Shown one piece after another: positions 2 to 20,696 of a stretch of DNA of 38,576 bases. The notes under the pieces are model-generated. The model did not search any database. It was not told where the DNA came from and saw only the letters and a list, made by a program, of their open reading frames with translations. The position numbers and the translations under genes are program-made. The DNA comes from Fidelibacterota bacterium (GTDB lineage Bacteria; Fidelibacterota; Marinisomatia; SCGC-AAA003-L08; D37C17): positions 16,755 through 55,330 of the forward strand of contig PCCQ01000023.1 of the NCBI GenBank assembly GCA_002731795.1, given 5' to 3'. Every line of letters starts with the position of its first letter. Position 1 is the first letter of the stretch.

Positions 2-1339
2 GCATCTCCTGGAGATAATGAAGCAATGTTAAGCTGGGATAGTGTTATCGAAGAGCGTGAGGAAGCATTTGTAGGATATAATGTATATCGGTCAACAACA
101 AGTGGTAGTTCATATGCTTTTGTTGCAGCGATCACTGGTGATGAGACTATGTATACAGATACAGGGCTTGATAATAGTCAAATGTATTATTATGTAGTTA
201 CCTCTCAGTATGAAGAGACTGAGTCTGCATACTCAAATGAAGCATCAGCTCAGCCAATGGATTTTATTCAGCTTAGCATGAGTGATGTTGAAGGAATCTA
301 TGCTCCTGGTGATACATTTGATGTAACCATCTCATGGGAAAACCCAGGTACGATTGCAGGTATTCAGCTTGTACTTGAGGATCTTCCTGAGGCGGTTACG
401 ATGACCAATGTTGAAGGACTTGGAGCTCTAGCAGGTGAAGATTTAAATGCCTACAGTTCAGATTATAACGGAGTTGCAACCATTCTTTGGTTTAGTCTTA
501 CAGGCGCTACTTTAGGTGCAGGTGAAGGTGAAATTGCTCGTGTAACATTTGAGGTTAATGATGATGCTGGATGTGGTAGCTTCGATCTTAACTTTTCTGA
601 TGATGCAACGGGAACCGTATTCTCTGATAGCAATGGTCTTGCATATTTCTGGGATGGGGAAGGACAAAGTATAAATACTATTTGTGATGCAAATTTATCA
701 TTGGTACAAGTATCAGAAACGGTATTTGAGGTTCATATGGTAAATACAGTTGATGTTGCTGGATTCCAGTTTGACCTGGTTGATACTCCAGATAATTTTA
801 GTATCTCAACATCTTCTACAACAGCTAGAACCAGTGGATACCTTGTAAGTACCAATGCAAGTGGTACTGTGATTGGATTTTCAATTACAGGTGGAACGAT
901 TGCACCTGGATCAGGAGCCATAGTACAGATCACTGCAGGTAGTTCGCTAAATGATACTGAGGTATGTTTTGATAATATCGTTCTTGCAGATCCAACTGGT
1001 GCAGAAATTGAAGCGAGATCTGAATGTATCATGTTTAGCGATGAACTAGCTAATGATGAATTAGAAATCCCTAATAATTTCTCAATTAGCAAAATTTATC
1101 CAAACCCATTCAACCCTAGTACAACTATTGAATGGACAATGAAAGAGTTTGGAAGTCATAGACTAGATGTATATAATACCAATGGTCAGCTTATTGATGT
1201 TATAAGCAATGGTTACATATCTCCAGGATATAAACAAAGTATGTGGGATGCTAGCAACCATGCTTCAGGTATTTACATTATTAGATTAGTCATTAATAAT
1301 AATCTAGTAAGCTCCAACAAGGTAATGCTTGTTAAATAA
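2..1339 (+). CDS. Secreted protein, 5'-truncated by window edge: fibronectin type III-like domain, cohesin-like domain, T9SS-type C-terminal sorting domain
   Basis: Frame is open upstream of the reported ATG to the window edge (ASPGDNEAMLSW...). Fn3-like 'YNVYRSTTSGSSYAFVAAITGDETMYTDTGLDNSQMYYYVVTS'. Cohesin-like beta-rich region (PGDTFDVTISWENPGTIAGIQLVLE...). C-terminus '[17 protein letters not shown]...SGIYIIRLVINNNLVSSNKVMLVK'. Confidence 0.85.
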   Translation, partial: ASPGDNEAMLSWDSVIEEREEAFVGYNVYRSTTSGSSYAFVAAITGDETMYTDTGLDNSQMYYYVVTSQYEETESAYSNEASAQPMDFIQLSMSDVEGIYAPGDTFDVTISWENPGTIAGIQLVLEDLPEAVTMTNVEGLGALAGEDLNAYSSDYNGVATILWFSLTGATLGAGEGEIARVTFEVNDDAGCGSFDLNFSDDATGTVFSDSNGLAYFWDGEGQSINTICDANLSLVQVSETVFEVHMVNTVDVAGFQFDLVDTPDNFSISTSSTTARTSGYLVSTNASGTVIGFSITGGTIAPGSGAIVQITAGSSLNDTEVCFDNIVLADPTGAEIEARSECIMFSDELANDELEIPNNFSISKIYPNPFNPSTTIEWTMKEFGSHRLDVYNTNGQLIDVISNGYISPGYKQSMWDASNHASGIYIIRLVINNNLVSSNKVMLVK

Positions 1340-15027: not shown

Positions 15028-16341
15028 ATGAATTTAATACCTATCATTATAATGATTAATGCTGTGTTCTCATATTGTGCAACTTTTGAAGTTGATATTT
15101 CTAATGCTGAAATCCCAGATGGTAATTTTATAGTTTTAATGAATGGATCATGGAATAGCTGGGGTTGGGGCTATCAGTTAGATGAAAGTGACGATGCTAA
15201 CATATATTCTGGTACATTTTGTGGATTTGAAAATGGAGAATATCAGTACATTCATTCTATTACTGGTGATTTTGACTCTTGGTCAGGCTGGGGTTTAATT
15301 GGAAATCCACCTTTAGCTTCAGATTGTGATTTTAATCCTAATGATAGCTATCAAAACTATGGATTTACAATAAATGGAAGTGATGTAGTAAATCAATTAA
15401 ATTCATGGAATTGCTGTGGAGTAAATGAATGTTCAGATTGGGATGGATGTAATTCTGGCGCGCTACAAACTGATCAATCATATTTATATGGAAGATTTGA
15501 AGTAAGAATGAAATCCGCAGACGGAGACGGACTAGTAAGTTCATTCTTCACTTATAATACCAATTGGGATTCTGGATTAGGTAACTTGAATTGGAATGAA
15601 ATTGATATTGAAATGACTGGAAACCGTGATAGTACTGTACAATTTACAACTCATCATCCAGGAACCCCAAATTCATGGTCATATGGTGAGATAATAGATG
15701 TTGATTTTAATCCTCATGAAAGTTTTCATGATTATGCATTTGAATGGACTCCAGATTATATTGCATGGTTTGTAGATGGAGATGAAGTTTATTCCCAGGG
15801 AATATCTATTGTTGATGATATGAATTTTTCTCAAAAAATTATGATGAATTTATGGCCAGCTGTTTGGGAAAGTTGGGTTGGGACTTGGGATGAAAACGAT
15901 ACTCCTAAGCATGCCTATTATGATCATGTAAAATATTATAGTTATAACCCCGGATTGGGAGACTATGGTACTAATAATAATTTTTCATTATTATGGGAAG
16001 ATGACTTTAATCATTTTAATCAAATTATTTGGGAAGATAACTCTAGCGGTTCTTTCAATGGGAATCTATGTTCTTTTAATCCACAAAATACAAACTATTA
16101 CAATGGCTATTTAATTTTAAGTTTAACTGATATTAATGATGATATTAATTGCAATGAAGTTAATGGTGACTTTAATTATGATAATACTTTAGATGTTATA
16201 GATCTTGTTACTGTTGTTAATTCTATATTATCATCAACATCAATTGAATTATGTCAATTTTTAGCTATAGATCACGATAGCAATGACTCTGTAGATGTTT
16301 TGGATATCATTCATTTTTTAAATGAAATTATTGGTAGCTAA
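15028..16341 (+). CDS. Secreted GH16-family beta-glucanase (licheninase-like), circularly permuted order, with dockerin-like C-terminus
   Basis: Catalytic ExDxE in 'NWNEIDIEMTG' (15598-15612). 'YGRFEVRMKSADGDGLVSSFFTY'. C-terminal 'LLWEDDFNHFNQIIWEDN...NYYNGYLILSLTD' is the usual N-terminal GH16 segment. Dockerin-like 'GDFNYDNTLDVIDLVTVVNSIL...DHDSNDSVDVLDIIHFLNEII'. Confidence 0.9.
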   Translation: MNLIPIIIMINAVFSYCATFEVDISNAEIPDGNFIVLMNGSWNSWGWGYQLDESDDANIYSGTFCGFENGEYQYIHSITGDFDSWSGWGLIGNPPLASDCDFNPNDSYQNYGFTINGSDVVNQLNSWNCCGVNECSDWDGCNSGALQTDQSYLYGRFEVRMKSADGDGLVSSFFTYNTNWDSGLGNLNWNEIDIEMTGNRDSTVQFTTHHPGTPNSWSYGEIIDVDFNPHESFHDYAFEWTPDYIAWFVDGDEVYSQGISIVDDMNFSQKIMMNLWPAVWESWVGTWDENDTPKHAYYDHVKYYSYNPGLGDYGTNNNFSLLWEDDFNHFNQIIWEDNSSGSFNGNLCSFNPQNTNYYNGYLILSLTDINDDINCNEVNGDFNYDNTLDVIDLVTVVNSILSSTSIELCQFLAIDHDSNDSVDVLDIIHFLNEIIGS

Positions 16342-19041: not shown

Positions 19042-19238
19042 GAAAAAGCAAGATGAGGAGGAGATTAGAGAATTAACGGATGATTCTTGCTCTTCCTAAA
19101 TTATTTTAATTTATTAAATATAATCGCTCAGAAACAAAATAAATTTAATTTCTCCTTAGTTATTTTTTTAAATTTTAAAGAGATTCTTTATTTTGATCGA
19201 AAATTATGTAAATTTTAGGAAATAGAAGGAGTTGTAAT

Positions 19239-20696
19239 ATTATTTTATTAATTAAGATATTTTTTATTTCATTTATTTTATACTCTCAGGAAGTATACGA
19301 AGGATATACTCTTTTTACTCCAATAACTGAGGGACCAAACGGAGGAGGAGATAATTATACAAGATTAATTGATAATCATGGAAATATTATAAATCAGTGG
19401 AATCATGAGTCTTGTGCAGCTACTACCGCTTACTTGTTGGAGGATGGTTCTTTAATATGCCCAATGAAAGTTGAAAATCCGTTTATGGTAGGGGCAGCTT
19501 ATGGTGGAAAAATAGTAAAATATAACTGGAGGGGTGATATAATATGGGAGTATTCATATTCAGATACCAACCATCTTCAACATCATGATATAGAGCCGAT
19601 GCCTAATGGGAACATTCTATTATTATCATGGGATCGCAAAACCTATCTTGAAGCAATTAACGCAGGTAGAGAAGATATTGAAAGTGATATATGGCCAGAT
19701 AAAATTGTTGAGGTTGAATTGATAGGCAACAATGAAATTAATATTGTTTGGGAGTGGACCTTTTGGGATCATTTAATTCAAGATTTTGATTCTACGTTAT
19801 CTAACTATGGTGTTATTTCAGATCATCCTGAGCTACTTGATATCAATTTAGTAAGTCTTGATCTTGCAGCATTGGGATATTCAGATTGGACACACTCGAA
19901 TTCCATTGATTATAATGAAGAATTAGATCAAATTTTAATTTCTTGCCGAAATCTGCATGAAATATATATAATTGACCATAGCACAACTACTGAAGAAGCT
20001 GCAAGCCATTCAGGTGGGGATAGCGGGATGGGTGGTGACATATTATATAGGTGGGGGAATCCTATGAATTACAATCGTGGAAATCAGCAAAATAGAATGC
20101 TTATTGGACAACATGATGCAAATTGGATTGAGAACAGTTTTCCTGGAGAAGGTAATATTTTAATATATAATAATGGATCTATTACTAGTTTTGGACAAGA
20201 TTTTACACAATCTTCTGTTGTTCAAATAGAACCACCAATCAATGAATATGGTATTTATGAAATTGATGAAGTGCATTCATATTTTCCACTTGATTATAAT
20301 TGGAGTTATACTGATGATTTTTTCTCTCATATAATGTCTGGTGCTAGAAGATTAGAAAATGGGAATACTTTGATTGTTCCTGCAACTGAAAATAAAATTT
20401 TTGAAATAAATTCTGAAGGAGAAATTGTTTGGGAGTATTTACATAATGAAGTTGGTCATAATTCAATTTCAAAAGCATTTAAATATCCTTTAGATTATCT
20501 AAGATCAGGAAGTTTGTTGTTTGGGGATGTTAATTTTGATCAGAATACCGATATTTTTGATATTTTATTTATAATTAATTATATTCTTGAAATAAACCAA
20601 ATGGCTCAGAGTCAGATATATATATCAGATGTTAATAATGATCAAATTGTAAATATAGACGATATTATATCTCTAGTATTGCTAATTATTAATTAA
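19239..20696 (+). CDS. Arylsulfotransferase (ASST)-like secreted protein with dockerin-like C-terminus; probable non-canonical ATT start
   Basis: 'NHESCAATTAYLLEDGSLICPMKVENPF', 'LQHHDIEPMPNGNILLLSWD', 'DWTHSNSIDYNEELDQILISCRNLHEIYIIDHST', 'GDILYRWGNPMNY' resemble ASST beta-propeller. Frame is open upstream to 19212 and encodes a signal peptide (ILLIKIFFISFILYSQ). SD AAGGAG at 19226-19231. C-term 'GDVNFDQNTDIFDILFIINYIL...SDVNNDQIVNIDDIISLVLLII'. The ORF track's TTG start at 19434 would remove the signal peptide. Confidence 0.75.
   Translation: MILLIKIFFISFILYSQEVYEGYTLFTPITEGPNGGGDNYTRLIDNHGNIINQWNHESCAATTAYLLEDGSLICPMKVENPFMVGAAYGGKIVKYNWRGDIIWEYSYSDTNHLQHHDIEPMPNGNILLLSWDRKTYLEAINAGREDIESDIWPDKIVEVELIGNNEINIVWEWTFWDHLIQDFDSTLSNYGVISDHPELLDINLVSLDLAALGYSDWTHSNSIDYNEELDQILISCRNLHEIYIIDHSTTTEEAASHSGGDSGMGGDILYRWGNPMNYNRGNQQNRMLIGQHDANWIENSFPGEGNILIYNNGSITSFGQDFTQSSVVQIEPPINEYGIYEIDEVHSYFPLDYNWSYTDDFFSHIMSGARRLENGNTLIVPATENKIFEINSEGEIVWEYLHNEVGHNSISKAFKYPLDYLRSGSLLFGDVNFDQNTDIFDILFIINYILEINQMAQSQIYISDVNNDQIVNIDDIISLVLLIIN

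Follow-up and report, generated by a model that had tools for sequence, protein, structure and literature searches.

A circularly permuted lichenase-type GH16 domain in a Fidelibacterota genome and its relatives across the FCB group

Introduction

The usual example of natural circular permutation in an enzyme is a single one, the Fibrobacter glucanase. The fold of this F. succinogenes 1,3-1,4-beta-D-glucanase (PDB entries 1mve, 3axd, 1zm1 and 3h0o) is a jelly roll reported to be circularly permuted in nature (Tsai et al. 2003, cited in PMC2395249). Features of the GH16_21 subfamily include an ExDxE catalytic strand and a phenylalanine at the -1 site, and its characterised enzymes cut mixed-linkage glucan only, strictly requiring mixed linkages (PMC6827312). 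The main text of that work on GH16 subfamilies mentions neither permutation nor Fibrobacter. No paper on a permuted GH16 outside Fibrobacter was found in a search of mainly open-access literature, which is weak evidence for novelty.

The window analysed here is a stretch of 38,576 nucleotides from the metagenome-assembled genome (GCA_002731795.1) of a marine bacterium of the Fidelibacterota (Neomarinimicrobiota), and it encodes a 437-residue GH16 protein that has the same segment order, breakpoints and ExDxE triad as the F. succinogenes glucanase, a similar junction linker, and a fold match to it over the full length. The two enzymes differ in sequence (~33% identity), in the replacement of the Fibrobacter residues E11, R137 and W203, and in accessory parts, the window enzyme having an N-terminal module and a dockerin-like tail. 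Canonical GH16_21 lichenases, such as those of C. thermocellum (3wvj) and Bacillus (1gbg, 3o5s and 2ayh), share a homologous core and catalytic strand with the permuted set (41-42% median core identity), but they carry the two segments in the opposite order and match collinearly after de-permutation. The laminarinase-type enzymes of GH16_3 also have the GH16 fold and are often encoded near permuted genes, but they contain ExDxxE, keep the canonical order and form a separate clade at 100% support.

Results

Gene structure and coordinates

The gene and its parts are listed in Table 1. The GH16 domain spans about residues 143-368, where the segments follow one another as YGRFEVRMK, EIDIE, HVKYYSYNPG (the last core strand) and then FSLLWEDDFNHFNQIIW...NGYLILSLTD. 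An earlier note, made from the DNA letters alone, had read this permuted order from the motifs, and the profile, Pfam and predicted-structure results given below bear it out. Its coordinates were exact for EIDIE (15598-15612) and close for the moved segment (about 15979-16131, here 15982-16131), while YGRFEVRMK, which it placed at 15481, corresponds to residues 154-162 and has its first base at 15487. The putative N-terminal signal suggests that the protein is secreted.

Table 1. Features of the permuted GH16 gene and of the cohesin gene, in window coordinates.
Feature	Position	Strand	Basis
Permuted GH16 gene P0001, 437 aa	15028..16341	+	Open reading frame; full-length 93% identical orthologue from the same genus
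Putative signal peptide MNLIPIIIMINAVFSYC	15028..15078	+	Read from sequence; hydrophobic start kept in orthologues
N-terminal accessory module, residues 18-125, mobile, weakly CBM48/AMPK-beta-like	15079..15402	+	Occurrence elsewhere; PDB profile
GH16 core, residues 143-306, the C-terminal part in canonical enzymes	15454..15945	+	PF00722; canonical-only HMM
Catalytic EIDIE, E191/D193/E195, equivalent to F. succinogenes E56/D58/E60	15598..15612	+	Alignment of 113 distinct permuted domains
Junction linker NPGLGDYGTNNN, joining the canonical C- and N-termini	15946..15981	+	P[GND]x[GA] motif
Moved segment, residues 319-368, equivalent to the canonical N-terminal W.DDF...GYLxLxL strands	15982..16131	+	N-segment HMM; predicted structure
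Dockerin-type-I-like tail, EF-hand-like calcium loops at residues 381-392 and 415-426	16150..16338	+	PF00404; loops from sequence
Cohesin domain of the window's first gene (26-1339, end of a 1526-aa frame)	266..604	+	PF00963, 35.1 bits in the window
Type IX secretion sorting tail of the cohesin protein	1094..1324	+	PF18962, 37.7 bits

The source genome was assembled from a metagenome in 93 contigs, so an assembly or binning artefact was considered. The reading frame is open, an orthologue in a same-genus genome is 93% identical from end to end, and orthologues with 57-93% identity were found in six other genomes. The cohesin gene lies ~14.7 kb upstream of the permuted gene, with equal spacing in the window and in the same-genus genome, and the architecture is repeated in 139 ORFs. 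The artefact reading is refuted by these observations and retains a negligible probability. The neighbours of the permuted gene in the window are PmbA/TldD and AlgH-like genes, with no glucan-use cluster there, and a PADLOC search gave no match.

Evidence for the circular permutation

The 14 domains used to build a profile HMM were all canonical GH16_21, taken from the PDB, from plasmid-borne genes, and from FCB and other MAGs, and no permuted sequence was included. On the native domain this canonical-only HMM gave two swapped matches, to model positions 56-209 (141.5 bits) and then 1-45 (17.9 bits), and on the de-permuted domain one collinear match to positions 1-209 (163.8 bits), compared with a maximum of 150.1 bits when the C-terminal segment of the de-permuted domain was shuffled 200 times. 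The earlier note had proposed that a GH16 profile should hit twice and out of order, and that collinearity over one segment would speak against permutation; the native domain is not collinear and the de-permuted domain is. Likewise, the C. thermocellum lichenase aligned with the de-permuted domain over 12-215 (110.7 bits) and with the native domain over the core only (101.7 bits).

Pfam PF00722 matched the native protein once (100.3 bits, E 1e-28, cut-off 22), and its coverage of the 175 model positions extended from 30-162 in the native to 7-162 in the de-permuted sequence. A Pfam search of the moved segment alone gave no match, probably because the segment is too short for the model. Seen through Pfam only, with one collinear core match and none for the C-terminal piece, the protein could be taken for an ordinary GH16 core followed by an unrelated C-terminal domain, an option also raised by the earlier note. 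Against this, the piece alone scored 39.8 bits with the canonical N-segment HMM, where 200 shuffles gave at most 5.8; canonical and permuted N-segments reach 55-56% identity (Bacteroidota enzymes and another MAG); and the piece is integral to the predicted structure, sitting within the sandwich of the AF2 domain model. The segment is homologous to the canonical GH16_21 N-terminal strands, and both the sequence and the predicted structure refute the unrelated-domain reading, leaving it next to no probability.

The AF2 model of the domain, based on 14 homologues, had a pLDDT of 85.2 and a pTM of 0.86, with a loop at about residues 340-348 below pLDDT 50; compared with solved GH16 structures, it shows the beta-jelly-roll of GH16, as a prediction only. 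A full-length AF2 model from six orthologues was set aside (pLDDT 34.5). In a Foldseek search of the PDB with the domain model, the best nine matches were all F. succinogenes glucanase (TM 0.81-0.87, 229-234 columns), followed by the engineered Bacillus glucanase permutants 1cpm and 1cpn (231 columns). Canonical lichenases aligned over about 130-180 columns only, in the core, as expected of a permuted jelly roll aligned in sequence order. In sequence, F. succinogenes 3axd and the window protein share a single collinear HSP over 144-370 (E 2e-34), in agreement with the F. succinogenes topology that the earlier note had named. Taken together, these results confirm that the GH16 domain is circularly permuted.

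Catalytic site and predicted function

The window enzyme scores above the GH16 profile cut-off and has the ExDx(x)E strand of the family (EIDIE, residues 191-195). ExDxE was found in 112 of the 113 distinct permuted domains, the remaining one being truncated. The strand has no bulge and a phenylalanine lies at the -1 platform, both as in GH16_21: F174 aligns to Fibrobacter F40, which is the equivalent of Bacillus Phe-92 by alignment. The trees place the enzyme with subfamily 21 and away from GH16_3, a split with 100% support. The NF047856 BGlucanaseBglS equivalog model matched at 127.5 bits (model 79-235) and its cut-off of 300 was not reached; by this profile the enzyme is a relative of that family and not an equivalog.

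Equivalents of Fibrobacter F40, W54, W105, N139, W141, W148 and W186 are retained. Three other positions are changed: E11 to A145 (E in 105/113 relatives), R137 to M272 (M in 111/113 relatives, as is usual in the clade) and W203 to G341 (H in 103/113 relatives). These changes weaken a simple transfer of function from Fibrobacter. The window enzyme, with its intact ExDxE triad, is predicted to be an endo-beta-1,3-1,4-glucanase, with both activity and specificity putative.

The same permuted fold could act instead on another substrate, such as laminarin or an algal glucan, or be a weak or inactive binder. The lineage is marine, the altered E11, R137 and W203 are Fibrobacter substrate positions, and the other GH16 of the genome is a canonical laminarinase-type enzyme adjoining a 322-aa GH17-like protein; in a relative, the permuted gene itself adjoins a canonical laminarinase-type GH16 with the same N-terminal module. 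However, the strand is ExDxE, one residue shorter than the laminarinase-type ExDxxE, and the -1 phenylalanine is conserved, both features of GH16_21, a subfamily with a strict need for mixed linkages (PMC6827312). We regard a different substrate or a binding role as unlikely, though deserving some weight, and favour mixed-linkage or related beta-glucan as the substrate.

Distribution of the permuted form

The earlier note, stating that few natural circular permutants are characterised, treated the enzyme as a rare second example, a view amended by the present survey. Over all loci, 139 permuted ORFs were found, with Neomarinimicrobiota, Calditrichota, Ignavibacteriota, KSB1 and Bacteroidota as their sources. 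The moved segment lay downstream of the core in every one of them, and none was a duplication intermediate with the segment on both sides of the core. In a collection of species-representative genomes, all 80 returned loci were permuted. Most were labelled Neomarinimicrobiota, Calditrichota, Ignavibacteria, KSB1 or Bacteroidota, and a few carried Chloroflexota, Caldisericaceae or Deltaproteobacteria labels, which may reflect mis-binning or transfer; L027 clusters inside the window's own family in the tree. A domain match at E < 1e-60 was detected in 72 of 245 Neomarinimicrobiota genomes. An even draw across the phylum Bacteroidota returned a GH16_21-like match in 40/398 genomes, and of 28 new loci fetched from it 24 were permuted and 4 canonical. 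The permuted GH16 form is widespread across the FCB (Fibrobacter-Chlorobi-Bacteroidetes) group, and the Fibrobacter case is thus no lone oddity.

Origin of the permutation

In the trees and alignments, Fibrobacter was represented by its PDB sequence only. Canonical GH16_21 enzymes fell on one side of a single branch, with support of 98 (SH-aLRT) in a quick tree and 89/93 in a careful one, and Fibrobacter formed a long branch. Holding all permuted sequences as one clade gave a likelihood slightly above that of the free tree (p-AU 0.525), and holding Fibrobacter with the canonical enzymes was not rejected (p-AU 0.347). Because both arrangements of Fibrobacter are compatible with the data, this phylogeny, which the earlier note had called for, does not by itself choose between one and two permutation events.

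Evidence stronger than the tree for a common origin comes from the junction linker, which is present in permuted proteins only. The P[GND]x[GA] motif was found in 100 of the 113 permuted domains, Fibrobacter among them, and the junction stretch has 21 residues in 102/113 and 19 in Fibrobacter. The moved segments had median identities of 36-45% (maximum 56%) with canonical genes of the FCB group and of one unclassified MAG, a median of 44% with Fibrobacter, and lower values of 33-35% with Firmicutes. The canonical N-segments most like the moved segment are those of L136, L151, L154 and L158 (FCB) and of L120 (unclassified MAG RSWS12), several of which share an HTF..N motif, all in canonical order. 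Two genomes, G257 and G544, encode a canonical and a permuted enzyme on one contig. One Neomarinimicrobiota gene (L119, G201) encodes PKD-like repeats followed by a canonical-order GH16 with ExDxE, which forms a long branch in the tree.

The permutations in the window enzyme and in Fibrobacter could have arisen independently in the same loop, by convergence. The long Fibrobacter branch and its unrejected grouping with canonical enzymes leave room for this, as do the Bacillus permutants 1cpm and 1cpn, which were engineered at the same site and fold well, indicating that the loop tolerates cutting. Two origins nevertheless appear improbable, given that the breakpoints are identical, that the linkers are alike (VYKYTPGQGEGGSDFTLDW compared with YYSYTPGQGEYGTSNNFSFEW in L008) and near-constant in length, and that the one-clade constraint is slightly likelier than the free tree. 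As the simplest history, and not a proven one, we infer a single ancient permutation in an FCB-type lichenase.

Accessory modules and gene neighbourhood

The N-terminal module also occurs on other proteins of relatives. The earlier note had called it carbohydrate-binding-like; a module is indeed present, but a Pfam search of it gave no match and its profile had AMPK beta-2 as the best PDB hit at E 0.12, a weak CBM48-type resemblance. In L007, a 448-aa canonical laminarinase-type GH16 encoded on the minus strand adjoins the permuted gene in divergent orientation; it shares the N-terminal module and also ends in a dockerin-like tail.

The dockerin-like character of the tail, also proposed in the earlier note, is borne by two calcium loops that look intact and by homologous tails on many family proteins, whereas the PF00404 Dockerin_1 score of the tail alone (14.9 bits, E 0.031) is below the 22.9 cut-off. 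The source genome (1.55 Mb) contains 50 Dockerin_1 matches at E <= 0.001 (27 at 1e-6), three cohesins and 27 type IX tails. The cohesin of the window's first gene scored 37.6 bits with PF00963 in the genome search; elsewhere in the genome, a 240-aa protein (L104:1411-2133) seems to consist of a signal, a cohesin and a type IX tail, and cohesin frames of ~245-290 aa are found repeatedly across the bacterial family. A possible partner of the dockerin-like tail is the cohesin of gene 26-1339, but a simple pairing is weakened by family f3, which has cohesins and almost no dockerins. Within the window, an arylsulfotransferase-like protein at 19212-20696 (frame open from 19212) has a clear Dockerin_1 tail of 30.9 bits.

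Two permuted enzymes, in L039 and L056, have a malectin domain and a type IX sorting tail instead. In both loci a PorV-like gene precedes the permuted gene, which is followed by genes with Pfam matches to a second GH16 and GH5 in L039 and to GH3 and a sodium:solute symporter in L056. A gene of ~480-510 aa sits immediately upstream of the permuted gene in L010 as well as in these two loci, where it had no Pfam match; by eye, the L010 copy and ORFs in L021 and L022 start alike, as ...FI(R/K)R(A/S)EY.IRP.Y.KG. Another GH16 ORF was found near the permuted gene in 25 of the fetched loci, and in L013 and L014 the permuted GH16 shares its ORF with a downstream region that resembles a GH5 glucanase.

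Discussion

The window protein is very probably a secreted lichenase-type (GH16_21-like) GH16 enzyme whose permuted jelly roll would be shared by descent with F. succinogenes and a broad FCB clade. The canonical N-terminal strands have been relocated to follow the last core strand, to which a short PGxGxxG linker connects them. The enzyme is predicted to be a retaining hydrolase of mixed-linkage or related beta-glucan; by alignment to F. succinogenes E56 and E60, E191 would be its nucleophile and E195 its acid/base. The N-terminal module may bind glucan, and the dockerin-like tail may dock the enzyme to a surface cohesin.

A broader and more tentative proposal is that the permuted GH16_21 form is an ancient and major FCB architecture of single origin, with Fibrobacter as one of its branches, combined in this Neomarinimicrobiota family with surface display through dockerins and cohesins. 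In such a display, dozens of dockerin-tailed exported proteins would dock on small type IX-anchored cohesin proteins. If true, this would be a cellulosome-like arrangement in marine bacteria.

The kind of permutant known from Fibrobacter is far broader than one enzyme. Standard domain annotation reports a single truncated GH16 match, so the permutation stays hidden, and yet the architecture occurs in more than 100 genes of several phyla. Canonical cousins are found within the same phylum, two genomes having both forms on one contig, and their presence alongside permuted genes makes how and when the permutation happened testable by phylogeny and by segment-order swaps.
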